This document shows positions 24,839 through 36,606 of a DNA stretch of 64,000 nucleotides, piece after piece (the first letter of the stretch is position 1; every line of letters begins with the position of its first letter). The stretch covers positions 1 through 64,000 of the forward strand of contig NZ_FQWL01000007.1 in NCBI RefSeq assembly GCF_900129665.1, written 5' to 3'. A model generated the notes under the pieces. The model was not told where the DNA came from and ran no database searches. It saw nothing but the letters and a program-made list of their open reading frames with translations. Origin of the DNA: Flagellimonas flava. Its GTDB lineage: Bacteria; Bacteroidota; Bacteroidia; Flavobacteriales; Flavobacteriaceae. The position numbers and the translations under genes were made by a program.

Positions 24839-26227
24839 ATGAAAAGTATTAACAGGCGGAATTTTCTAAGGAAAACATCCTTGTCCGCTGCCGCAATTTC
24901 GTTGTTACCCCGAACGTTAAAGGCAGCCACCCTAAGACCTTCACAATCCTTATATATGGGGAACTTTGCAGCTCCCAAACTGGAAAACATTAAGGCAGCA
25001 TTTATTGGTGTTGGAGCCAGAGGGGGTACCCATCTCAAATTCTTTGCAGCTTTGGAGGGAACAGAGGTGGTGGCCATATGTGATCTTTACGAGGACCTTG
25101 TGAAGGAGAAAGTTGGCTGGGTTAGGGAAGTGGCTAGTGAAGAGAGGCATAAAGATATAGCTCAATATTGGGGGGAAGAGGATAAATGGCGAACCATGTT
25201 GAAAGAGGTAAAACCTGATGTGGTTTTTATTGCAACCAATTGGTTCAATCATGCGCCAATGGCCATCGAATCAATGAAGCAAGGGGCGCACGCTTTTGTT
25301 GAGGTGCCCATTGCTGTCACCTTGGATGAAATGTGGGATATTGTGGATACTTCTGAGCGTACCCAGAAGCATTGTATGATGATGGAAAATGTGAATTATG
25401 GTCGGGATGAACTTATGTTTCTGAACATGTGCAGACAAGGAGCAATTGGTGAGATTATGCACGGGGAAGCCGCCTACATCCATGAACTTAGATTTCAGAT
25501 GGAAGAGCAGGAGCGGGGGACAGGCTCTTGGCGTACCTACCACTATGCCAAAAGAAATGGAAACCTATATCCAACCCACGGTTTGGGACCTGTGGCCCAA
25601 TATATGAATCTGGGTCGAACGGAGGATAACTTTGCTAGCTTGGTCTCTTTTTCAACACCAGCTCTTGGTAGGGAGGCCTACGCGAAGAAAAACTATCCAC
25701 AAGACCATAAATGGAACAAACTGGACTATCAAGGCGGGGATCTAAATACTTCAATAATTAAAACGAAATTGGGGAAAACCGTTATGGTACAATGGGATGA
25801 GACCAGTCCTAGGCCCTATAGCAGACTTAATTTGATTCAAGGGACCAAAGGCACATTAACTGGTTTTCCAACCAGGGTGGCCCTAGAGGGAGGAGTGGAA
25901 GGCGTAACCAAAGATCACCATTCATGGGCACAAGATGAACAGCTGGCTGCGGTATATGAAAAATATGACCATCCCTTGTATAAAAGACTAAACCAAAAAG
26001 CCAAAGGAAGTGGTCATGGAGGCATGGATGGTATCATGGTCTATCGCATTGTTGAATGTCTTCAAAAGGGACTGCCGCTAGATCAAAATGTTTACGAAGG
26101 TTGTTATTGGAGTGCCGTTGCACCACTAAGTGAACGTTCCGTTGCTAGCGGAGGCTCCCCCCAGCCCTTTCCAGATTTTACAAGGGGCAACTGGAAAACC
26201 ACAGAACCTTTACATATAATTGCCTAA
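24839..26227 (+). CDS. Gfo/Idh/MocA oxidoreductase of GH109 (alpha-N-acetylgalactosaminidase) type, Tat-exported
   Basis: 462 residues with a Tat signal (RRNFLRK 6-12, hydrophobic 14-24). Rossmann motif GVGARGG 57-63 binds NAD. The usual EKP of Gfo/Idh dehydrogenases is EVP at 155-157, as in GH109 enzymes, and other segments resemble GH109 too: ENVNYGRD, GNLYPTHGLGPVA, ETSPRPYSR, GHGGMDG, GGSPQPFPDFTRG. GH109 enzymes cleave alpha-GalNAc by an NAD-dependent oxidation-elimination route. The periplasmic site and GalNAc specificity are inferred; related glycosidases of other specificity exist. First gene of a likely operon with the GHMP kinase (17 bases) and nucleotidyltransferase (5 bases). Confidence 0.85.
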   Translation: MKSINRRNFLRKTSLSAAAISLLPRTLKAATLRPSQSLYMGNFAAPKLENIKAAFIGVGARGGTHLKFFAALEGTEVVAICDLYEDLVKEKVGWVREVASEERHKDIAQYWGEEDKWRTMLKEVKPDVVFIATNWFNHAPMAIESMKQGAHAFVEVPIAVTLDEMWDIVDTSERTQKHCMMMENVNYGRDELMFLNMCRQGAIGEIMHGEAAYIHELRFQMEEQERGTGSWRTYHYAKRNGNLYPTHGLGPVAQYMNLGRTEDNFASLVSFSTPALGREAYAKKNYPQDHKWNKLDYQGGDLNTSIIKTKLGKTVMVQWDETSPRPYSRLNLIQGTKGTLTGFPTRVALEGGVEGVTKDHHSWAQDEQLAAVYEKYDHPLYKRLNQKAKGSGHGGMDGIMVYRIVECLQKGLPLDQNVYEGCYWSAVAPLSERSVASGGSPQPFPDFTRGNWKTTEPLHIIA

Positions 26228-26244
26228 TTCTTTCAAATAGATTC

Positions 26245-27303
26245 ATGATTAAGATTTCGGTGCCCGCACGCATTTGTTTTTACGGCGACCATCAGGATTA
26301 CTTGGGCTTGCCAGTTATTGCTGGAGCCATTGACAGATATATTCATATTTCCGGTTCCCCTAATGAGGATGCCTGTTTTTCGATTGCACTCAACGATATT
26401 GGAAAACACATTCGCATTGATTTGGATGACCCCTTGCAAGAAATTCCAAACGGGGATTACTTTCGGTCTGCAATGTCGGTGTTGAAACAATACGGACTTA
26501 AGCTGAATAAAGGTTACAATTTGGAAGTCCAAGGCGATATCCCGGTCAACGCCGGATTATCAAGTTCTTCAGCCGTTACCGTAGCATGGATTCGGTTTTT
26601 GCTGGCTTCCCAAAAAGCGGATTTTTCCTGGGATAACAAACAAATTGGTAGATGGGCCTATGAAGCGGAAGTGATCTATTTTAAGCAGCCTGGAGGGCTA
26701 ATGGATCAATATTCCATTGCCCAGGGGGGATTGCTTTATATTGAGACCAAGGAGGGAGGAACGGAGCCCTTAAATGCCAATTTGGGAAAGATGGTTGTAG
26801 CCGAGTCAGGATTGCCAAAGCAAACTTTGGATGTGCTTAAGAATGGAAGGGTTTATGGCCAAAATGCAATCTTGGCAGTGAAAGAGAAACATCCAGAATT
26901 CAATATGGATAATGCTACTGTAAAGGACTATGAGACTTATAAGCACCTGGTGCCAGAACAATATCAGGATCACTGGTATGCCGCAGTGCATAACTATAAC
27001 ATTACCCTCACCGCCAAAGCAGAGCTCTTAAAGTCGGAACCGGACAGCAAGATTTTGGGGTCATTGATGGACAAGCATCAAAATATACTTCAAAACCAAA
27101 TCCAAAATACACCTAAGCCTATGGCTGAAATGATGGAAGCTGCTAGGGAAGCTGGTGCATTGGGGACTAAAATCATTGGTTCGGGCGGGGGTGGATGTAT
27201 GGTGGCACTTGTATCAGAAGAAACTAGCCAAAGTGTAATTGAAGCTTTTTTGGAAGCTGGGGCAAAGTCAGCATATGAAGTTAATATAACCTATAACGAG
27301 TAA
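26245..27303 (+). CDS. GHMP-family sugar kinase (galactokinase-like)
   Basis: 352 residues. N-terminal PARICFYGDHQDYLG (7-21) corresponds to the galactokinase sugar-binding motif GEHTDY, with the Glu changed to Asp. ATP-binding GHMP motif 2 is PVNAGLSSSSA 100-110; the catalytic-base Asp154 is in GGLMDQY; motif 3 is IGSGGGGCMVAL near 313-324. It should phosphorylate a hexose or N-acetylhexosamine at the anomeric OH. Because it lies between a GH109-like enzyme and a nucleotidyltransferase, a GalNAc- or related hexosamine-1-kinase role is suggested (inference). ATG at 26245. Confidence 0.85.
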   Translation: MIKISVPARICFYGDHQDYLGLPVIAGAIDRYIHISGSPNEDACFSIALNDIGKHIRIDLDDPLQEIPNGDYFRSAMSVLKQYGLKLNKGYNLEVQGDIPVNAGLSSSSAVTVAWIRFLLASQKADFSWDNKQIGRWAYEAEVIYFKQPGGLMDQYSIAQGGLLYIETKEGGTEPLNANLGKMVVAESGLPKQTLDVLKNGRVYGQNAILAVKEKHPEFNMDNATVKDYETYKHLVPEQYQDHWYAAVHNYNITLTAKAELLKSEPDSKILGSLMDKHQNILQNQIQNTPKPMAEMMEAAREAGALGTKIIGSGGGGCMVALVSEETSQSVIEAFLEAGAKSAYEVNITYNE

Positions 27304-27308
27304 TAGCT

Positions 27309-28151
27309 ATGCAAAATGAGAGTTTGATCATCATGGTGGGTGGAGCTTCTTCCCGAATGAAGAGAAGTCTTCAAACCGCCAATTTGGATGAAGCAACTAA
27401 AAACGCGGCCCAGAAATTACATAAAAGCCTAATTCCCCTTGGTGATGATGGAAAGCCACTACTTTTCTATCTAATTAGGAATGCCGTTCAGGCTGGTTAC
27501 AAACATGTGTACCTTATTACGAGTAAGGAAAATGAAGGTTTTAAGGATGTGGTTGGGGACCAGCAAAGCAATAACAAGTATCAAGGAATTTTGGTTCACT
27601 TCGCCATACAGGAGATTCCTGAAGGTCGTGAAAAACCTTTGGGTACTGCAGATGCATTGGAACAATGCATGGAACAATATCCAGAACTGAAATCCAAGAC
27701 GTTTACGGTTTGCAATGGGGACAACCTATACGCAATCGGGGCTTTGGAAGATTTGAGACAACCTAGAAAAGCGTCCAATGCACTGATTAGTTATAGCAGT
27801 GAGGGCTTGCGTTTTTCTGATGAGCGGATTGCCAAATTTGCCTTGATGGACATTTCAAGTGAGGGCTTTTTAAAAGGAATTATCGAAAAACCGGAACAGA
27901 ATCGCGTAAATGACTATCGGGATTCAACCGATGCACTTAGGGTAAGTATGAATATTTTCAGTTTTCTGGGAAGTGATATTTATCCCTACCTCAAAAACTG
28001 TCCAATACATCCAGAACGTAAGGAAAAGGAACTTCCGGTTGCTGTCCGAAATATGGTAGAAGATAACTCGGAAAGCGTTTACTGCATTCCAAGATCGGAA
28101 TACATTCCTGATCTTACCAGTGCGGAAGACATCAAGCTTTTTGAGATTTAA
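27309..28151 (+). CDS. Sugar-phosphate nucleotidyltransferase
   Basis: 280 residues of the NTP_transferase fold. GGASSR (11-16) stands for the usual GGxGTR loop; the catalytic Lys is probably K39 (HKSLIPLG), separated from the loop by an unusual insertion of about 20 residues. GTADAL 112-117 and NGDNL 136-140 (metal Asp) are clear, as is IIEKP (about 190-194). It should join a sugar-1-phosphate with UTP or another NTP. It starts 5 bases after the GHMP kinase, so the kinase product is its likely substrate. The nucleotide and sugar are not determined by the sequence. Confidence 0.82.
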   Translation: MQNESLIIMVGGASSRMKRSLQTANLDEATKNAAQKLHKSLIPLGDDGKPLLFYLIRNAVQAGYKHVYLITSKENEGFKDVVGDQQSNNKYQGILVHFAIQEIPEGREKPLGTADALEQCMEQYPELKSKTFTVCNGDNLYAIGALEDLRQPRKASNALISYSSEGLRFSDERIAKFALMDISSEGFLKGIIEKPEQNRVNDYRDSTDALRVSMNIFSFLGSDIYPYLKNCPIHPERKEKELPVAVRNMVEDNSESVYCIPRSEYIPDLTSAEDIKLFEI

Positions 28152-28231: not shown

Positions 28232-28723
28232 ATGATTTACAAGAGACACATTTACATGGTAATGGCCCTTGGCCTAGGATTTACCACAACTATGAATTCC
28301 CAAAAACAAAAGATGATGAAAACTTCAATTTCGAAAGAGCAACAAGAAGTATTGTATGCCATTGAGTCCATGACCAAATCATTCAACGATAAAGACATTG
28401 ATGGTGTAATGTCGAGTTATGAGGATGGGGCCCTGGTTATTTTTGAGCCAGAGACTCCGGTCAGGGACGTCAAAATTTTAAAGGAAATGTTCCTTGGGGC
28501 TTTCGGCATTAACCCACAATTTGCATACCCCAACGGGCATGAGGTTTTTGTGAACGGAGACGCGGCCACCCATATTGCTCCATGGGTTATGACCGGAAAG
28601 GCTCCAGATGGAACCCCTATAAGGCAAACTGGACTTTCAGTTGCCAATCTGAGAAGACAGAAAGATGGTAGATGGTTACTTATCTTTGATAACCCTCATG
28701 GTAGCTTTCTTTTGAATCAATAG
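28232..28723 (+). CDS. Exported NTF2/SnoaL-like protein
   Basis: 163 residues: a weak N-terminal signal peptide (about 1-24) followed by an NTF2-like domain of the DUF4440/SnoaL class (about 32-160: MTKSFNDKDIDGVMSSYEDGALV, NPHGSFL). The family is a cone-shaped alpha-beta fold with varied or unknown small-molecule functions. It starts 80 bases after the nucleotidyltransferase and ends 4 bases before an ECF sigma gene, so it is coupled to the latter. A role in modulating that sigma factor is a possibility, because ECF41-type sigma factors carry a SnoaL-like domain fused at the C-terminus (established for that family); here it is a separate, exported protein. Confidence 0.78.
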   Translation: MIYKRHIYMVMALGLGFTTTMNSQKQKMMKTSISKEQQEVLYAIESMTKSFNDKDIDGVMSSYEDGALVIFEPETPVRDVKILKEMFLGAFGINPQFAYPNGHEVFVNGDAATHIAPWVMTGKAPDGTPIRQTGLSVANLRRQKDGRWLLIFDNPHGSFLLNQ

Positions 28724-28727
28724 CCAG

Positions 28728-29597
28728 ATGGAGAACAAAAATCTTTCAGATTCACTTCTTATAAAAAAGGCCTTGTCTGGAGATAAGGCCTCTTTAGAGT
28801 CATTGGTGATCAAACATCAAGATTATATATACAATGTGGCCCTTACCTTTGTGGGTGACCCAAACGAAGCGGCCGATCTTACACAGGAAGTATTGATTAA
28901 AGTGATCACAAAGCTTGATTCCTTTAAAGGGGACAGTAGTTTTAAGACCTGGATGTACCGCATCGTTAAGAATCATTTTCTCAATATGAAAAGAGGGAAA
29001 CATGAGATCAATCCGCCAACTTTTGAAGAATTCGGAAATGGATTGGATCAGTTGCCGGATGAATCCCTTTCCAATTACACTTTTGAAGTTGAAGAAAAAC
29101 TTCTGGTCAATGAAGCCAAGATCAGTTGCATGAAAGGTATGTTGCTTTGTTTGGATAGGGAACAACGCCTTGTCTACATCATCGGGGAGCTTTTTGGGTT
29201 TCCGGATACCATTGGCGGGGCCATTATGGAAATCTCCAAGGAAAACTTTAGGATTAAGTTGCATCGAGCCAAGAAACAGCTGTACAATTTTATGAACCAC
29301 AAATGTGGTCTTATCAATAAAGCCAATCCTTGTAGGTGTCATCGCAAAACCGCAGGCTTTATTAAGCTGGGATATGTGGATCCGGACAGTCTTCATTTTC
29401 AAAAAAATATGCTTAGCCAAATCAATGAGGTGGTGGAGGAAAAAGTGGATGCATACTCCAATGAGGTGCTTTCGGAATATCAAAAACTATATCGGGAACA
29501 CCCTTTTCTTAAGAGTCCGGATAAAATGAAGTCCATTAAAAAATTGCTGTCAAATGAAACTATACGGACGACCTTTAATTTGAATGACCTAAACTAG
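28728..29597 (+). CDS. Sigma-70 family factor with Cys-containing C-terminal extension
   Basis: 289 residues, longer than a usual ECF factor (about 180-190). Region 2 at about 15-90 (EAADLTQEVLIKVITKL, FKTWMYRIVKNHFLNMKRGK) and a weak region 4 at about 130-190 (DREQRLVYIIGELFGF, ISKENFRIKLHRAKKQL) are followed by an extra domain of about 95 residues that opens with Cys-rich HKCGLINKANPCRCHRKT and continues as charged helices. The Cys/His cluster could bind metal and sense redox or metal state. No classical anti-sigma gene is adjacent; the NTF2-like gene lies 4 bases upstream. Targets unknown. Confidence 0.82.
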   Translation: MENKNLSDSLLIKKALSGDKASLESLVIKHQDYIYNVALTFVGDPNEAADLTQEVLIKVITKLDSFKGDSSFKTWMYRIVKNHFLNMKRGKHEINPPTFEEFGNGLDQLPDESLSNYTFEVEEKLLVNEAKISCMKGMLLCLDREQRLVYIIGELFGFPDTIGGAIMEISKENFRIKLHRAKKQLYNFMNHKCGLINKANPCRCHRKTAGFIKLGYVDPDSLHFQKNMLSQINEVVEEKVDAYSNEVLSEYQKLYREHPFLKSPDKMKSIKKLLSNETIRTTFNLNDLN

Positions 29598-29675
29598 AAT
29601 TCGTCCGTCGTATGTTGGAATCTGTTCTAGACCTACACGGAGAGAGGTTTTTTGTTGATTTGAAACTGGGAAGCA

Positions 29676-32000
29676 ATGCCTATCTTTAAGGATAAACCAG
29701 AAAGGAATATGGCTAAGGAAGTAAAACGCAAGATTTCAGCGATTGGTGATATAAACTTCTCTGATTTACAAGTAACAGAACCGGAGGCATATGCGGCTGG
29801 AGTGCCAGCTATAAAAGTAGCTTTGGAACATGTACGCAAAGAATCCGGACTTTTTAGATCCATTAAGACCCTGTCGCGCATGAACCAAAAAGAGGGTTTT
29901 GATTGTCCTGGTTGTGCTTGGCCAGACCCTGAAAAACCATCGAAGCTGGGCGAGTATTGTGAAAATGGTGTCAAGGCCATTGCAGAGGAAACCACCTTTG
30001 AGCGTGCAGACCGCGAATTCTTCCAAAAATATTCCGTGGAGGCCATTTCTCAATGGACGGATTTTCAAATAGGTAAAAGTGGTAGAATTACCGAACCCTT
30101 TGTCCTAAGACCTGATTCGGTTCATTATGAACCCATTTCCTGGGAAGCTGCTTTTGAATTGATCGCTGAACATTTAAGGACTTTGAACCATCCGGATGAG
30201 GCCATTTTTTATACTTCAGGACGCTCTAGCAATGAAGCGGCATTTCTTTATGGCCTATTTGCCAGAGCTTTTGGAACGAATAATATGCCGGACTGCTCCA
30301 ATATGTGCCATGAATCAAGTGGCGTTGCACTCTCCCAAACACTTGGAATAGGGAAAGGCTCTGTGGTCTTGGAAGATTTTGAAGAAGCTGAGGTGGTCAT
30401 GGTCATCGGACAAAACCCTGGGACCAATCATCCCCGAATGCTTTCCGCACTTCAAAAGTGCAAAGAAAAGGGAGGTAAGATCATTACAGTAAATCCACTT
30501 TCCGAAAGCGGACTGAACAGGTTTAAGAACCCTCAACAACTTAATGGTATTCTTGGAAAGGGAACCGCCTTGACGGATATTTTTCTGCAGGTTAAGATTA
30601 ATCAAGACGTTTCCCTATTAAAGCTGATTATGAAACGATTGGCGAAAAGGCAAAAAACCGATAATACGGTTTTCGACTTAGATTTTATTACCGAAAAAAG
30701 CCAAGGCTACGAAGATTTTCTGGAAGACTTGAAAGGTTATAGCGAAGATGAGCTATTGGCACTTTGTGGTGTGGAATCTTCAAAAGTGGACGAGGCGGTG
30801 GAGGTTTTGGCGACTGAATCGCGCATAATTATTTGCTGGGCCATGGGGCTTACCCAACATAAAAATGGGGTTGAAAACATTAAGGAATGCGTGAATCTGC
30901 TCTTACTAAAGGGAAGCATTGGAAAGAAAGGTGCTGGAACTTGTCCCGTGAGGGGACATAGCAATGTACAGGGAGACCGTAGTGTTGGTATTATGCATTA
31001 TGTGTCCAAACCCTTAAATCAGGCCTTAAAAAAGGAGTTTGGTTTTGACCCGCCAGAGAAACAGGGTATGGATACCGTTGAAGCCATTCAATCAATGCAT
31101 TCCGGAAAGTCCAAGGTGTTCATAGCACTGGGGGGAAATTTTGTTTCTGCTGCCTCTGATACAGAGTATACCGCAGAAGCCCTACAACATTGCGAACTTA
31201 CCGTTTCGGTAAGCACTAAATTGAACAGAACGCACCTAACAGCTGGAAAAACTTCATTGATTCTACCCACATTGGGCAGAACTGAACAAGACAATGGACG
31301 TTTTGTAACCGTGGAAAACAGTATGGGAAAGGTTCATCAGAGCAAGGGAAGGTTAAAACCAGCAAGTGATAACCTGAAAAGCGAACCCGAAATTGTGGCA
31401 AGCATGGCCACTGCATTTTTTGGGAATAGTGGCCCCATTGATTGGATGCGTTTTGGAACAGATTATGGACTTGTTCGCGAAAAAATTTCCAAGGTTTTAT
31501 CCGGATATGCCGACTATTCCAAACAATCCAAAGGCTCCGGATTTTATCTACCCAATAATGCTAGGGCGGGAGACTTTTCCAAACTTCCCGGAGGGAAAGC
31601 CCAATTCTCTATCTGCAAATTGCCTGAACATAGACTTGGGGCGGATGAATTTGTACTTATGACCGTAAGGAGTCATGACCAATTCAACACTACCATTTAT
31701 GGATTAAATGACCGGTATAGGGGCATTCATGGAGAACGGCGGGTGGTGTTTATGAATCCTGCTGACATGACACGGCATGGGCTTAAATCAGAGCAGGTGG
31801 TGGACCTGATCAGCAACTACAATGGTAAAGAACGAAGGGCAAGGCATTTTAAAGTGATACCTTATAACATTCCTTCAGGCAATCTATGTTCGTATTTTCC
31901 TGAGGCCAATGTTTTGGTGCCCATAGATTTATATGCAGACCAAAGTCAGACTCCAGTAAGCAAATCTATTGTGGTCAAGGTAGAGGAGTACCAAGGTTAA
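29676..32000 (+). CDS. Molybdopterin oxidoreductase alpha subunit, FdhF/YdeP type
   Basis: 774 residues aligning along its length with E. coli YdeP: EGFDCPGCAWPDP (C77, C80) and C95, YTSGRSSNEAAFLYGLFAR, DCSNMCHESSGVAL, GQNPGTNHPRM, GHSNVQGDR and SHDQFNTTIYG. The family belongs to the DMSO reductase/formate dehydrogenase superfamily, binds bis-MGD and probably one Fe-S cluster, and lacks selenocysteine; the YdeP substrate is not established although acid-resistance links are known in E. coli. The start could also be Met12. It is followed 31 bases later by a membrane hydroxylase gene. Cytoplasmic (no signal peptide). Confidence 0.92.
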   Translation: MPIFKDKPERNMAKEVKRKISAIGDINFSDLQVTEPEAYAAGVPAIKVALEHVRKESGLFRSIKTLSRMNQKEGFDCPGCAWPDPEKPSKLGEYCENGVKAIAEETTFERADREFFQKYSVEAISQWTDFQIGKSGRITEPFVLRPDSVHYEPISWEAAFELIAEHLRTLNHPDEAIFYTSGRSSNEAAFLYGLFARAFGTNNMPDCSNMCHESSGVALSQTLGIGKGSVVLEDFEEAEVVMVIGQNPGTNHPRMLSALQKCKEKGGKIITVNPLSESGLNRFKNPQQLNGILGKGTALTDIFLQVKINQDVSLLKLIMKRLAKRQKTDNTVFDLDFITEKSQGYEDFLEDLKGYSEDELLALCGVESSKVDEAVEVLATESRIIICWAMGLTQHKNGVENIKECVNLLLLKGSIGKKGAGTCPVRGHSNVQGDRSVGIMHYVSKPLNQALKKEFGFDPPEKQGMDTVEAIQSMHSGKSKVFIALGGNFVSAASDTEYTAEALQHCELTVSVSTKLNRTHLTAGKTSLILPTLGRTEQDNGRFVTVENSMGKVHQSKGRLKPASDNLKSEPEIVASMATAFFGNSGPIDWMRFGTDYGLVREKISKVLSGYADYSKQSKGSGFYLPNNARAGDFSKLPGGKAQFSICKLPEHRLGADEFVLMTVRSHDQFNTTIYGLNDRYRGIHGERRVVFMNPADMTRHGLKSEQVVDLISNYNGKERRARHFKVIPYNIPSGNLCSYFPEANVLVPIDLYADQSQTPVSKSIVVKVEEYQG

Positions 32001-32031: not shown

Positions 32032-33303
32032 ATGGAAACCTACGCTACCGCGCTCTTGTACGCAATCCCTTTTTTCGTTGGACTGGTTCTTTTTGAAGTG
32101 CTTTACGGGTATTTTATTAAAAATCAGATGCATAATGTAATGGATACCGTAAGCAGTTTGAGCTCTGGTTTGACCAACGTGGTAAAAGATTCGTTGGGAT
32201 TGGGTGTGGTTTTGATCAGCTATCCGTACTTATTGGAGCATTTGGCCCTGACGGAGATAAAATTGACCTGGTTCGTTTGGATAGTGGCATTTTTGGCCCT
32301 AGATTTTGCGGGTTATTGGAACCATCGCCTAAGCCATAGCATCAATTTCTTCTGGAATCAACATGTAATTCACCATAGTAGCGAAGAGTTTAATTTGGCT
32401 TGTGCGTTGCGACAATCCATTTCCAATCTGCTTGTTTATTTTCCGTTTTTACTGATTCCGGCAGCCTTGCTTGGAATTCCCCATAAGGTTGTGGCCATAT
32501 TGGGACCGCTACATTTATTTGCTCAATTCTGGTACCACACCAGGCATATTGGTAAAATGGGTTGGTTGGAGTATATCATTATTACGCCATCCCAACATCG
32601 AGTGCACCACGCCATAAATCCAGAATACATTGATAAAAACCTTGGACAGATTTTTAGTTTTTGGGATCGCATGTTTGGAACGTTTCAGGAAGAGTTGAAG
32701 GATGTGCCCCCACAATATGGGGTGTTGAAGCCTGCCCACACCTGGAACCCTATCCTAATTAACTTTCAACATATCTGGAGGTTGATAAAGGATGCTTGGC
32801 GTACCAAAAGTTACGTGGATAAGTTACGGATTTGGTTCATGCCCACAGGTTGGCGTCCTCAGGATGTCAAGGAAAAATACCCGGTTGACGTGATTGAAAA
32901 TGTATACGACTTTAAGAAATACATGCCCGCGGCATCCAAAAGCCTAAAAGGCTATGCTATTTTTCAACTCTTGGCCAATACCTCCCTAATGCTATTCATG
33001 TTCTACAACTACAGCGAAATTGGTTTCAATGGATTATTGGGTTTTGGAGCTTTTATTTTTGCTGGAATTTATGGATATACCTCGCTTATGGATCGTTCGC
33101 AATATGCGGTTTGGATTGAAATGGCTAGAAGCACAGCGGGATTGACCCTTCTTTTTTTGTCCAATGACTGGTTTGGATTAAACGCCCATATTCACTGGGG
33201 AAGTTATCTGGTGGCGGTTTACTTTGTAATTACTTTGTTCGGGGGAATCTACTTTACGTATTTAGAGGAAGGATCCAAAAACAGGGAAAAATTGGCTATT
33301 TAA
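32032..33303 (+). CDS. Sterol desaturase/fatty acid hydroxylase family membrane protein
   Basis: 423 residues with six or more membrane helices. The diiron histidine boxes are complete: HRLSH 98-102, HVIHH 111-115, an intermediate HxxxxxxxHTRH region 161-172 and HRVHH 189-193. The family hydroxylates or cleaves lipid chains using O2; the closest general type is the alkylglycerol-monooxygenase-like group. A helical C-terminal half (about 300-415) adds further membrane segments. Substrate unknown. Same strand as, and 31 bases after, the YdeP-like gene. Confidence 0.87.
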   Translation: METYATALLYAIPFFVGLVLFEVLYGYFIKNQMHNVMDTVSSLSSGLTNVVKDSLGLGVVLISYPYLLEHLALTEIKLTWFVWIVAFLALDFAGYWNHRLSHSINFFWNQHVIHHSSEEFNLACALRQSISNLLVYFPFLLIPAALLGIPHKVVAILGPLHLFAQFWYHTRHIGKMGWLEYIIITPSQHRVHHAINPEYIDKNLGQIFSFWDRMFGTFQEELKDVPPQYGVLKPAHTWNPILINFQHIWRLIKDAWRTKSYVDKLRIWFMPTGWRPQDVKEKYPVDVIENVYDFKKYMPAASKSLKGYAIFQLLANTSLMLFMFYNYSEIGFNGLLGFGAFIFAGIYGYTSLMDRSQYAVWIEMARSTAGLTLLFLSNDWFGLNAHIHWGSYLVAVYFVITLFGGIYFTYLEEGSKNREKLAI

Positions 33304-34150: not shown

Positions 34151-34179
34151 AAAAAGCGGTGATTTTGATCACCGTTTTT
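34151..34179 (+). terminator. Terminator after the Crp/Fnr gene
   Basis: Stem AAAAAGCGGTGAT / ATCACCGTTTTT with one bulged G and a TTTG loop, ending in a T run, 22 bases after the Crp/Fnr stop and 51 bases before the lipoprotein ATG. The lipoprotein promoter must therefore lie close to or inside it. Confidence 0.75.
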
Positions 34180-34230
34180 CATTTGTGCTTCAGCGTAGTT
34201 TTGATCATAATTAATCTAAAAAAAGAAATT

Positions 34231-36606
34231 ATGAAAAGAAATCTATTCAAAGCACTCCTGCTTGCAGGAATCTTGGCGTCATGTTCAGATGACGACGGAG
34301 AACTTATTGGAGAAATTCCCACGGATCCCGAGCCCGAACCCACCATTGAGGCAAACGTTAGGATCAATGAGGTGCAATACCTTGGAAATTGGGTGGAAAT
34401 TGTAAATAGTGGTGAAGAAACTGTGGATCTTTCCGATTACTTTTTATGCCTTGGCCCTAACACCTATAGACGAATAGGGGATTTAACGGTGGATGGAAAT
34501 TTACAACTTGCTTCTGGAGCTTATCTGGCCGTTTCCTATGAGATGCCAAACGCCACAGGTGGTTTGGGTCTTTATACTGATAATTCAGATTTTACCGATG
34601 CATCTACTTTGGCTGATTTTGTGCAGTGGGGAGCAGATGCAACCGCAAGAGAGAACGTAGCCGTCGCAGCTGGAATCTGGACTGCTGGTGAATTTGTACC
34701 TGTAATGGGAAATGCCGATTACACCATAGTTTTTGATGGTGACGGTACCGGAGCTGCAAATTGGTCCGAAACTACCACGGTAACCATTGGCGAGGACAAC
34801 GTGTTGACAGTACCAGAAGAAATTAGATCTATTGTAATCAACGAAGTGCAATATGGTAGCAGGGATTTGGTCGAATTCTACAATAACGGAACTGTTGCGG
34901 TAGACCTTAGTTCCTATTGGTTGTGCCTTGGCCCTGGGACTTATGTGCAATTAGGTAATGTTACTCCTGAAAGTGGCTCAATTGAATTGGCTGCTGGCGA
35001 ATTCTTAGTGGTTCCTTATCAGTTGCCAGATACAGAAGGTGGCTTGGGTCTTTATTCAAATGATGCCTTTACAAGTGCCGAAGCCATAGTAGACTTCGTG
35101 CAGTGGGGCGCTGCCGGTAGTGCAAGGGAAAATGTTGCTGTTGAGGCCGGAATATGGACTGCCGGAACCTACGTTCCCACGGTTCAGTTGGACAGCTACA
35201 GTATAGAATATGATGGAGAAGGGGATGAAGCCTCGGATTGGGCTCAGGAGGTAAACCCTTCCTTAGGTTTTGCCAATGATACTCCGGTAGAGACCACAAC
35301 ATTTAATGTTACCATAAGCAATGTCATCAATTACTTAAATGTACACACGTTCACTACTCCGGTGGGAGCAGGAAGCCCAGGACCATTGACTACAAATGGG
35401 GCACAATATCAAATCTCATTTAAGGCCGTACCAGGGACTAAACTAACCCCGGTAACCATGATGGGGAATAGCAATGATTGGTTCTTGGCGCCTACGGACT
35501 TGGCCGGAATTGACCTTTTTCCAAATGGAGAAGCCCTGAACGGGGTTGATATTGCAAATAAGTTATCGCTATATGACTTGGGAACAGAAGCAGATAATGA
35601 TGCCGCCACATTTCCTCCAGCGGGCACCAATGTTGGTCCAGCCGATGTGAATCCGTTGGTCCGATTGGTGGATGGAAGGGATACAGGTGATATCTATATA
35701 ACCGCAGTTTTGGATTATGCCAATGGGGATGGAAGTTCTGCGGGTACCTTTACGCTTACCATTACAGCAATTAACACTCCAGATGGAGGTCAACCGGCAA
35801 GTTCTACTAATGGATTTGTGGTCACTCCCGGTATTGCGGTATTACATGCACTCCCAGAGCCCTTGTTCACCTTAGGTCAAGAAGATAGGGGAGTGGGTCT
35901 TGAGCGCATAGCAGAAGATGGTATGCCAGGTGAGTTGTACAACTGGTTTATGGAAACCGGAACCAATGGTTCTCCCTTGCGTTTGGCTTCTTCCTTAAGT
36001 GTTTTCTCTCCTGGACTTGTATATGCATTTAACACCGAAAGTGATCCTTTCTTTTCTCAAGGAGGAGAAACGAATCCGCAAAGCGGATTGGAAGAGTTGG
36101 CCGAGGATGGAAACAATGCCGTGGCAGTTTCATACTTTAATGATTTAGGGTTGCCAGTTGCCGCCAGCAATGAGACTGCTCCAATAGGTCCGGGAGAATA
36201 CTTGTCGTTCAGCATCGATGTTCCGCAAGGACAAGATTACAAATTGGGTATTGGTACGATGCTGGTACAGACCAACGATTGGTTTATTAGTTATAACAAT
36301 AATGGTGTTGCTTTGTTCGATGAGGCAGGAACCCCATTTTCAGGAACTTCCGAAAGTGATGAGTCCTATCTTTTTGATGCCGGAACCGAAGTAGACGAGC
36401 CTGTTGGTTTTGGGATGTATCAAGCACCAAGACAATCTGTTTTGGATGACGGGCCTGCAGATGCAAATTCCACTATTCGAAGGGTAAGTGAGTTGGAAGA
36501 TGTCCAGTTTGGAAAGGGAACCTATAACAACGGTCCCGGTGTGGTATACCTAAGAGATCCAAGAGGGGGATACAATCTGGTTAAGATTGATATCCAACCT
36601 CAATAA
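34231..36606 (+). CDS. Lipoprotein with two lamin-tail domains and spondin-like segments
   Basis: 791 residues from the ATG at 34231; the lipobox LASC puts the lipidated Cys at residue 18, followed by an acidic DDD stretch and a Pro-rich spacer. Two tandem lamin-tail-like domains (about 45-200 and 205-370) share RINEVQY...WVEIVNSG...DLSDYFLCLGP and INEVQYG...LVEFYNNG...DLSSYWLCLGP. Two spondin_N-like segments follow (about 375-545 with NDWFLAP and LYDLGTE; about 550-785 with NDWFISY and LFDAGTE, each near GPAD). Such domains occur in secreted adhesion or nuclease-associated proteins; here surface anchoring and adhesion are inferred. An own terminator follows. Confidence 0.85.
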   Translation: MKRNLFKALLLAGILASCSDDDGELIGEIPTDPEPEPTIEANVRINEVQYLGNWVEIVNSGEETVDLSDYFLCLGPNTYRRIGDLTVDGNLQLASGAYLAVSYEMPNATGGLGLYTDNSDFTDASTLADFVQWGADATARENVAVAAGIWTAGEFVPVMGNADYTIVFDGDGTGAANWSETTTVTIGEDNVLTVPEEIRSIVINEVQYGSRDLVEFYNNGTVAVDLSSYWLCLGPGTYVQLGNVTPESGSIELAAGEFLVVPYQLPDTEGGLGLYSNDAFTSAEAIVDFVQWGAAGSARENVAVEAGIWTAGTYVPTVQLDSYSIEYDGEGDEASDWAQEVNPSLGFANDTPVETTTFNVTISNVINYLNVHTFTTPVGAGSPGPLTTNGAQYQISFKAVPGTKLTPVTMMGNSNDWFLAPTDLAGIDLFPNGEALNGVDIANKLSLYDLGTEADNDAATFPPAGTNVGPADVNPLVRLVDGRDTGDIYITAVLDYANGDGSSAGTFTLTITAINTPDGGQPASSTNGFVVTPGIAVLHALPEPLFTLGQEDRGVGLERIAEDGMPGELYNWFMETGTNGSPLRLASSLSVFSPGLVYAFNTESDPFFSQGGETNPQSGLEELAEDGNNAVAVSYFNDLGLPVAASNETAPIGPGEYLSFSIDVPQGQDYKLGIGTMLVQTNDWFISYNNNGVALFDEAGTPFSGTSESDESYLFDAGTEVDEPVGFGMYQAPRQSVLDDGPADANSTIRRVSELEDVQFGKGTYNNGPGVVYLRDPRGGYNLVKIDIQPQ

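Follow-up and report, generated by a model that had tools for sequence, protein, structure and literature searches.

In the window, the 64,000-nucleotide stretch of Flagellimonas flava DNA analysed here, three adjacent genes probably serve to salvage an N-acetylhexosamine in alpha linkage, with N-acetylgalactosamine (GalNAc) as the likeliest sugar, judging from their sequences and genomic context. Gene 1 (24839..26227, + strand, 462 amino acids) encodes a glycosidase of family GH109, a predicted NAD-dependent alpha-N-acetylgalactosaminidase with a putative twin-arginine translocation (Tat) signal. It is followed on the same strand by gene 2 (26245..27303, 352 amino acids), a galactokinase-type GHMP kinase and predicted N-acetylhexosamine (GalNAc) 1-kinase, and by gene 3 (27309..28151, 280 amino acids), a predicted sugar-1-phosphate nucleotidyltransferase whose fold favours uridine triphosphate (UTP). 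Together, they would most likely salvage GalNAc as uridine diphosphate-GalNAc (UDP-GalNAc). A first-pass annotation of this DNA had listed three same-strand genes with gaps of 17 bases (genes 1 and 2) and 5 bases (genes 2 and 3), and the coordinates of the open reading frames (ORFs) agree. Its proposal that the trio frees, phosphorylates and activates a sugar is supported by the joint conservation of the genes and by the amino-sugar operons of the kinase's relatives.

Predicted functions of the three gene products

Gene 1 scores 193.5 bits against PF21252 (Glyco_hydro_109_C; cut-off 27) and also carries PF01408, the Gfo/Idh/MocA Rossmann domain. The PF21252 model matched 0/14 control genomes and 0–3 copies per genome elsewhere. 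In PDB, its strongest match (580.7 bits) is an Akkermansia protein, 6t2b ('Glycosyl hydrolase family 109 protein 2'), followed by the alpha-N-acetylgalactosaminidase 2ixa (255.9 bits). We take the catalytic residues of 2IXA, in both role and numbering, to be E149, Y179, H181, Y225 and H228; the residues aligned to these five are identical in 58/58 GH109 rows, the window's included. Residues 155–157 of gene 1 read EVP and the lysine of EKP is lost, as expected from the first-pass description of a GH109-like protein with EVP replacing EKP. The Tat export proposed there is borne out in part: a twin-arginine motif (NRRNFLRK) is visible in gene 1, but the Tat model TIGR01409 stays below its cut-off (13.5 versus 16.7 bits). 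Because RRxF[LIVM] occurs within the first 40 residues of 55/58 GH109 rows, export of the gene 1 product is likely.

Gene 2 contains three GHMP/galactokinase domains, PF00288, PF08544 and PF10509 (the last at 25.1 bits, cut-off 23.1), and the motif GDHQDY, which confirms its earlier description as a galactokinase-like GHMP kinase with this motif. A wider signature, RxCxxG[DE]HQDYLxLP, is present in 89 of the 92 collected members of the kinase family. A Pfam scan up to E 0.1 returned GHMP/galactokinase domains only, with no APH domain (PF01636). The AlphaFold2 model of gene 2 (predicted local distance difference test, pLDDT, 94.6) was compared with known structures using VIA-align. It matched galactokinase 2dei with Z 41.0 (2.3 Å, 334 residues), the human kinase GALK2 (2a2d) with Z 38.8 (2.7 Å, 346 residues, 18% identity) and mevalonate kinases with Z 35.1 and lower.

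As a single sequence, gene 2 matches mevalonate kinases best (72.9 bits in PDB; 115.4 bits in NCBIfam), whereas the profile of its family places galactokinase first in PDB (133 bits). Mevalonate kinase was rejected as the identity of gene 2, and the single-sequence ranking set aside, because the equivalog cut-offs are missed (TIGR00549, 103.5 bits, cut-off 163.05; NF003036, 115.4 bits, cut-off 403) and both profile and fold rank galactokinase first. The GalK model TIGR00131 is missed as well (109.4 bits, cut-off 226.65), and none of the three genes attains any NCBIfam equivalog cut-off. Single-gene PDB and family matches left the sugar of the kinase unnamed, and no N-acetyl pocket was identified in the five best PDB alignments of the kinase profile, GALK2 not being among those five; a literature search on the active site of GALK2 added no useful information. 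A plasmid search with the kinase gave 26 records, all below 60% identity; the best five of the 26 are galactokinases at 24–29%.

The assignment of gene 3 draws on PF00483 (NTP_transferase; 44.7 bits, cut-off 21.2), which upholds the first-pass label of sugar-phosphate nucleotidyltransferase, on its adjacency to the kinase and on its AlphaFold2 model (pLDDT 92.8). VIA-align placed GlmU first (Z 26.1, 2.0 Å, 230 residues) and UDP-glucose pyrophosphorylases next (Z 25.9 and lower); the matches span only Z 26.1–25, and later rows, cytidylyl- and thymidylyltransferases among them, are near-tied. On the modelled fold, the nucleotide is likely UTP. Against the glmU model TIGR01173, gene 3 reaches 17.1 bits (cut-off 366.85); it is not GlmU, though it may function like the first domain of GlmU. 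The first-pass annotation had suggested modelling against GALK2 and UDP-N-acetylglucosamine pyrophosphorylase; the fold comparisons matched GALK2, GlmU and UDP-glucose pyrophosphorylases, and they do not fix the sugar.

Conservation of the gene order and linkage to GH109

A protein scan with gene 2 returned 45 related loci, 44 of them with a full-length kinase, from Allomuricauda, Flagellimonas, Muricauda, Croceitalea, Croceivirga, Aureicoccus, an 'Algicola' bin and other Flavobacteriaceae. The transferase lies directly 3' of the kinase on the same strand in 44/44 full-length-kinase loci (the L078 copy is cut by a contig end), and GH109 is the upstream neighbour in 40/45, the exceptions being L061, L071, L072, L074 and L078. 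This joint conservation had been put forward earlier as a check on the proposed operon. Most of these loci have the unit next to valS; in L067, L068 and L070 the trio is intact in different chromosomal settings, so its order goes beyond mere synteny.

The retained order bears on the idea that the three genes are chance neighbours, with either a gene 1 product that acts as oxidoreductase (or beta-eliminase) and not as glycosidase, or a mevalonate-type kinase encoded by gene 2. The Rossmann domain of gene 1 and the single-sequence matches of gene 2 would fit this idea. It is nevertheless very improbable, given the strong match of gene 1 to 6t2b, the lost EKP lysine with all five GH109 residues kept, the galactokinase ranking of the gene 2 profile and fold, and the persistence of the order in other settings.

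The genus sample comprised 60 genomes, in which we distinguished kinases of type A, that of the window, from type B, with 37–44% identity to the window's. Type A occurs in 38 genomes, type B in 15, both in 4 and neither in 11, and the two types tend to exclude each other (Fisher p 0.0014, 60 related genomes). A GH109 survey of 36 of the 60 found the enzyme in 29/30 kinase-positive versus 3/6 kinase-negative genomes (Fisher p 0.010, 36 related genomes). Beyond the genus, the kinase family was found at E 1e-30 in 6/394 other genomes of a class sample and 25/394 of a phylum sample, the two samples overlapping. This gave 28 distant kinase matches (27 genomes besides that of the window), of which 27 loci were analysed, leaving out that of G761. 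GH109 is present in 20 of the 27 distant kinase genomes; in 11/20 its distance from the kinase is at most 30 kb, where random placement predicts 0.31. The linked 11 consist of six from one genus (g26), three from one family (f82) and two single lineages; the genomes of both samples are related, and the p-values and the 11/20 linkage are descriptive rather than counts of independent events.

A tree was built from 59/92 kinases (15/48 of type A) and two galactokinase-type rows; the alignments likewise took part of the rows (A1, 51/92; A2, 42/78). Type A forms one clade (support 100/100), and the whole kinase family is split by a long branch, again with 100/100 support, from the two further galactokinase-type genes of the window's genome. 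GH109 neighbours are spread across the tree: they occur in the A clade, type B, the f82-family group, L123 and L124. One very divergent kinase (L116, 29% identity) sits on a long branch, and the same genome holds a closer copy (L112).

Amino-sugar operons, alternative routes and the proposed pathway

Fuller operons surround the type-B kinases. Among 17 type-B loci, the transferase adjoins the kinase in 11 and GH109 lies within the 15-kb stretch in nine, with two more at 9–11 kb. Four of the 17 (L082, L085, L087 and L095) carry the series kinase, transferase, epimerase, sodium/solute symporter (SSS) and NagB/PIG-L fusion, the last scoring 1055 bits against NF002557 in L095 (cut-off 384). The L087 and L095 operons continue into a phosphoglucosamine-mutase relative, which in L095 is cut by the locus end and reaches 412.7 bits against TIGR03990 (cut-off 439). 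PDB relatives of the type-B epimerase include WbgU and WbpP; in NCBIfam, the L095 epimerase matches TviC best, a UDP-GlcNAcA epimerase model whose cut-off it misses by far. In the 27 distant loci, we counted a transferase in 20, a close epimerase in 6, NagB/PIG-L at 60% in 6 and GH109 in 5.

These operons help to judge whether genes 2 and 3 could instead be a second Leloir-type galactose route, with the NTP_transferase replacing GalT. The galactokinase fold of gene 2 would suit such a role, and the PF00483 protein GalY (Amuc_0031), which clusters with galE in 15 genomes, has been predicted to replace GalT (PMC5583593). Pfam scans of the trio and of two sets of flanking genes (seven and nine, three of them in both sets) showed no GalT family. 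We consider this route improbable. The genome has two further galactokinase-type genes, one of which, a galK on contig C6, adjoins an ORF resembling GalT (by eye), so galactose is already served, which counts for a non-galactose role of gene 2. NagB/PIG-L and a glucosamine-type mutase would be needless for galactose, and the kinase family is separated from both galactokinase-type genes by the long, fully supported branch.

What replaces the kinase in genomes that lack it also points to GalNAc. In kinase-negative G031 (L146), GH109 stands beside an AgaS-family gene (364 bits, below the cut-off of 529) and genes for PfkB, an aldolase, an amidohydrolase and AgaR (283 bits, cut-off 260). In kinase-negative G025 (L145), its neighbours are GatZ/KbaZ-like, PfkB, class II aldolase, amidohydrolase and SSS symporter genes, the symporter being 67% like that of L095. 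The third kinase-negative GH109 genome, G030, is 71% complete and its GH109 contig is short. In four genomes (G021, G032, G033 and G742), a type-A GH109 occupies the same chromosomal setting as in the window, but kinase and transferase are missing from it; all four carry another kinase–transferase pair elsewhere. Such pairless GH109 genes occur in 3/5 type-B-only versus 0/6 kinase-less genomes of the genus, plus G742, so the cases are few. The window's genome itself has a second GH109 (L139, contig 5, 79000–96000) in the order sulfatase, LacI, GH109, which resembles the type-B loci L090, L091 and L093 except that the kinase, transferase and melibiase-like genes are lacking. In both directions, a locus of one type that has no pair occurs in a genome holding the other type. 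The exchange of the kinase route and the Aga/tagatose route beside GH109, in small numbers, is thus a pointer to GalNAc.

The first-pass annotation had named the lack of a transporter as its weakest point. None is present at the locus, which stands as it was put, but the concern is eased by an SSS symporter elsewhere in the genome with 69% identity to that of L095 over 603/605 residues. A NagB/PIG-L fusion, also elsewhere in the genome, is 72% identical to that of L095, whereas for the carrier of the major facilitator superfamily (MFS) from the L110-type cluster the genome offers no relative closer than 31%. By eye, the symporter (L158, 6301–10922) adjoins acyltransferase-like, riboflavin synthase-like and PdxA-like genes; the trio of L067 and L068 also lies near riboflavin synthase/PdxA-like genes.

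From this gene context we infer both the sugar, GalNAc as opposed to GlcNAc or another, and the nucleotide. In the predicted pathway, the exported GH109 enzyme would release GalNAc, which the symporter encoded elsewhere would import. The GHMP kinase would convert GalNAc to GalNAc-1-phosphate, and the nucleotidyltransferase, if UTP-specific, would form UDP-GalNAc. Epimerisation could then yield UDP-GlcNAc for cell-surface polymers; or the sugar might be catabolised to fructose-6-phosphate via a mutase together with the genome's NagB/PIG-L fusion, whose gene lies apart from the trio.

Several observations weigh against GalNAc salvage by this unit. Epimerase, deaminase, transporter and LacI genes are all missing at the window's own locus, and a search of the genome for the type-B epimerase gave only distant relatives (best full-length matches 31–33%). 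Besides the single-sequence ranking of gene 2, the sequence profile of the transferase ranks ATP-using ADP-glucose pyrophosphorylases first (E 3.7e-14), and the kinase fold does not tell GalNAc kinases from galactose kinases, galactokinases matching at least as well as GALK2. The transferase does not adjoin the kinase in 6/17 type-B and 7/27 distant loci. Ten genomes underlie the unpaired loci L079, L080, L081, L083, L084, L086 and L112–L115; a search covering 16 genomes detected no transferase homologue at E 1e-15 in eight that hold the kinase (G048, G057, G047, G038, G447, G483, G387 and G339), while the other two of the ten, G007 and G052, also hold a type-A pair. Because of these eight, the transferase step is not universal among kinase-bearing genomes. 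The kinase and GH109 are unlinked in 9/20 distant genomes, no GH109 adjoins the kinase–transferase pair in L061, L071, L072 and L074, and G011 has no GH109 anywhere. Finally, GH109 genes have been described in uronate loci of Algoriphagus (PMC5507952).

The loci without an adjoining GH109 would fit salvage of GlcNAc or several N-acetylhexosamines that the cell releases from its own wall or envelope, as opposed to external GalNAc. AmgK/MurU wall recycling provides an analogue. The setting beside valS and the absence of a transporter or SusC/SusD gene from the window's locus are consistent with this. We nonetheless regard it as unlikely, since GH109 is upstream in 40/45 loci and is also found close to the kinase in further lineages, and the GH109 members described in two studies act on alpha-GalNAc (PMC11992087, PMC11790493). 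The Algoriphagus loci, the TviC match of the L095 epimerase and a zebrafish glucuronokinase/pyrophosphorylase fusion, which joins a GHMP kinase to a bacterial-type transferase (PMC3938481), would agree with a uronate salvage pair giving UDP-glucuronate or UDP-galacturonate. Such a pair is highly unlikely: NagB/PIG-L and the mutase share the L095 operon, and the kinase fold is nearest to galactokinases, with GALK2 close.

GalNAc salvage by the trio may be one instance of a wider scheme, to which we give about an even chance. Bacteroidota would have recruited a galactokinase-descended GHMP family, marked by RxCxxG[DE]HQDYLxLP, as their own GalNAc 1-kinase, often with a dedicated uridylyltransferase. 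The complete Leloir-type route would run from GalNAc through GalNAc-1-phosphate, UDP-GalNAc, UDP-GlcNAc, GlcNAc-1-phosphate and GlcNAc-6-phosphate to fructose-6-phosphate. Its origin would be separate from that of the APH-type kinases in Bacteroides and Bifidobacterium, and it would swap with the Aga route in close species, the trio being its minimal form.

Around the trio, a fatty acid hydroxylase family gene (32032..33303, + strand; PF04116, 104.6 bits) lies 3' of gene 3, and its counterpart is found in 37/45 loci, mostly ~50 bp 3' of the transferase. In the window, genes for a DUF4440 protein, an extracytoplasmic function (ECF)-type sigma factor and a 774-amino-acid oxidoreductase-like ORF (28232–32000) separate it from the trio. 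A similar insert is present in L075 and in L143 and L144 (both without kinase and transferase), and most relatives are without it. An 815-amino-acid protein with a lamin tail domain (PF00932) is encoded at 34159–36606. A promoter and terminator scan revealed no enrichment over shuffles (4 versus a mean of 8.0; 1 versus 3.8).

Comparison with known systems

If GalNAc salvage by the trio is correct, a function would be assigned to a kinase family whose present scores against the galactokinase and mevalonate kinase models all fall short of the cut-offs, and a GHMP-type GalNAc 1-kinase would be added in bacteria. It would also provide a downstream route for GalNAc-1-phosphate and a sharp case, within one genus, of exchangeable GalNAc routes tied to the same GH109 glycosidase.

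The closest known counterpart is the polysaccharide utilization locus BT4240–50 of Bacteroides thetaiotaomicron, where the operon BT4240–43 combines the GH109 alpha-GalNAcase BT4243 with the GalNAc 1-kinase BT4240, which is required for growth on GalNAc (PMC11992087). The trio likewise places GH109 and a GalNAc 1-kinase (predicted here) in one operon. Unlike the GHMP kinase of the trio, BT4240 belongs to the APH family (PF01636, NahK-like), and its operon adds a GH2 and an MFS gene (PMC11992087). The main text of that paper leaves the fate of GalNAc-1-phosphate as 'downstream metabolism' and contains no word starting with 'nucleotidyl' (PMC11992087). The first-pass annotation had considered the arrangement undescribed; a GH109 and GalNAc 1-kinase operon is in fact known, but with a kinase of a different family. 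The trio most likely functions like the B. thetaiotaomicron operon and is not a member of that system, because its kinase is of another family.

Among the matches listed from the open-licence PMC literature, no title or abstract opening names a GHMP GalNAc kinase in Bacteroidota, and 'GalNAc kinase', 'NahK' and 'GalNAc-1-P' are all missing from the available text of a 2025 amino-sugar review (PMC12118421). For GH109 itself, Akkermansia enzymes are active on alpha-GalNAc substrates apart from the Tn antigen (PMC11790493), and a GH109 gene has been isolated from Arenibacter (PMC3721217).

With human GALK2 (2a2c/2a2d) the trio kinase shares the GHMP galactokinase-type fold, but it is bacterial, paired with a PF00483 transferase and only 18% identical. 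In the Bifidobacterium route, a phosphorylase releases the sugar, a kinase forms HexNAc-1-phosphate, and UDP-HexNAc and an epimerase follow. The trio differs from this NahK route in its kinase family and in using a GH109 hydrolase for release; the kinase activity of Bifidobacterium NahK has been reported (PMC6264712). The predicted GalK and GalY pairing likewise joins a sugar 1-kinase to a PF00483 transferase, but was proposed for galactose. The Aga pathway (AgaS, AgaR and tagatose) also serves GalNAc, and a 2017 gut survey used AgaS as its marker for GalNAc utilisation, stating that this pathway lacks a NagB homologue (PMC5583593). Its genes adjoin GH109 in G025 and G031. In contrast to the route proposed for the trio, however, the Aga pathway runs via 6-phosphates and tagatose, and not via a 1-phosphate and a nucleotide sugar.

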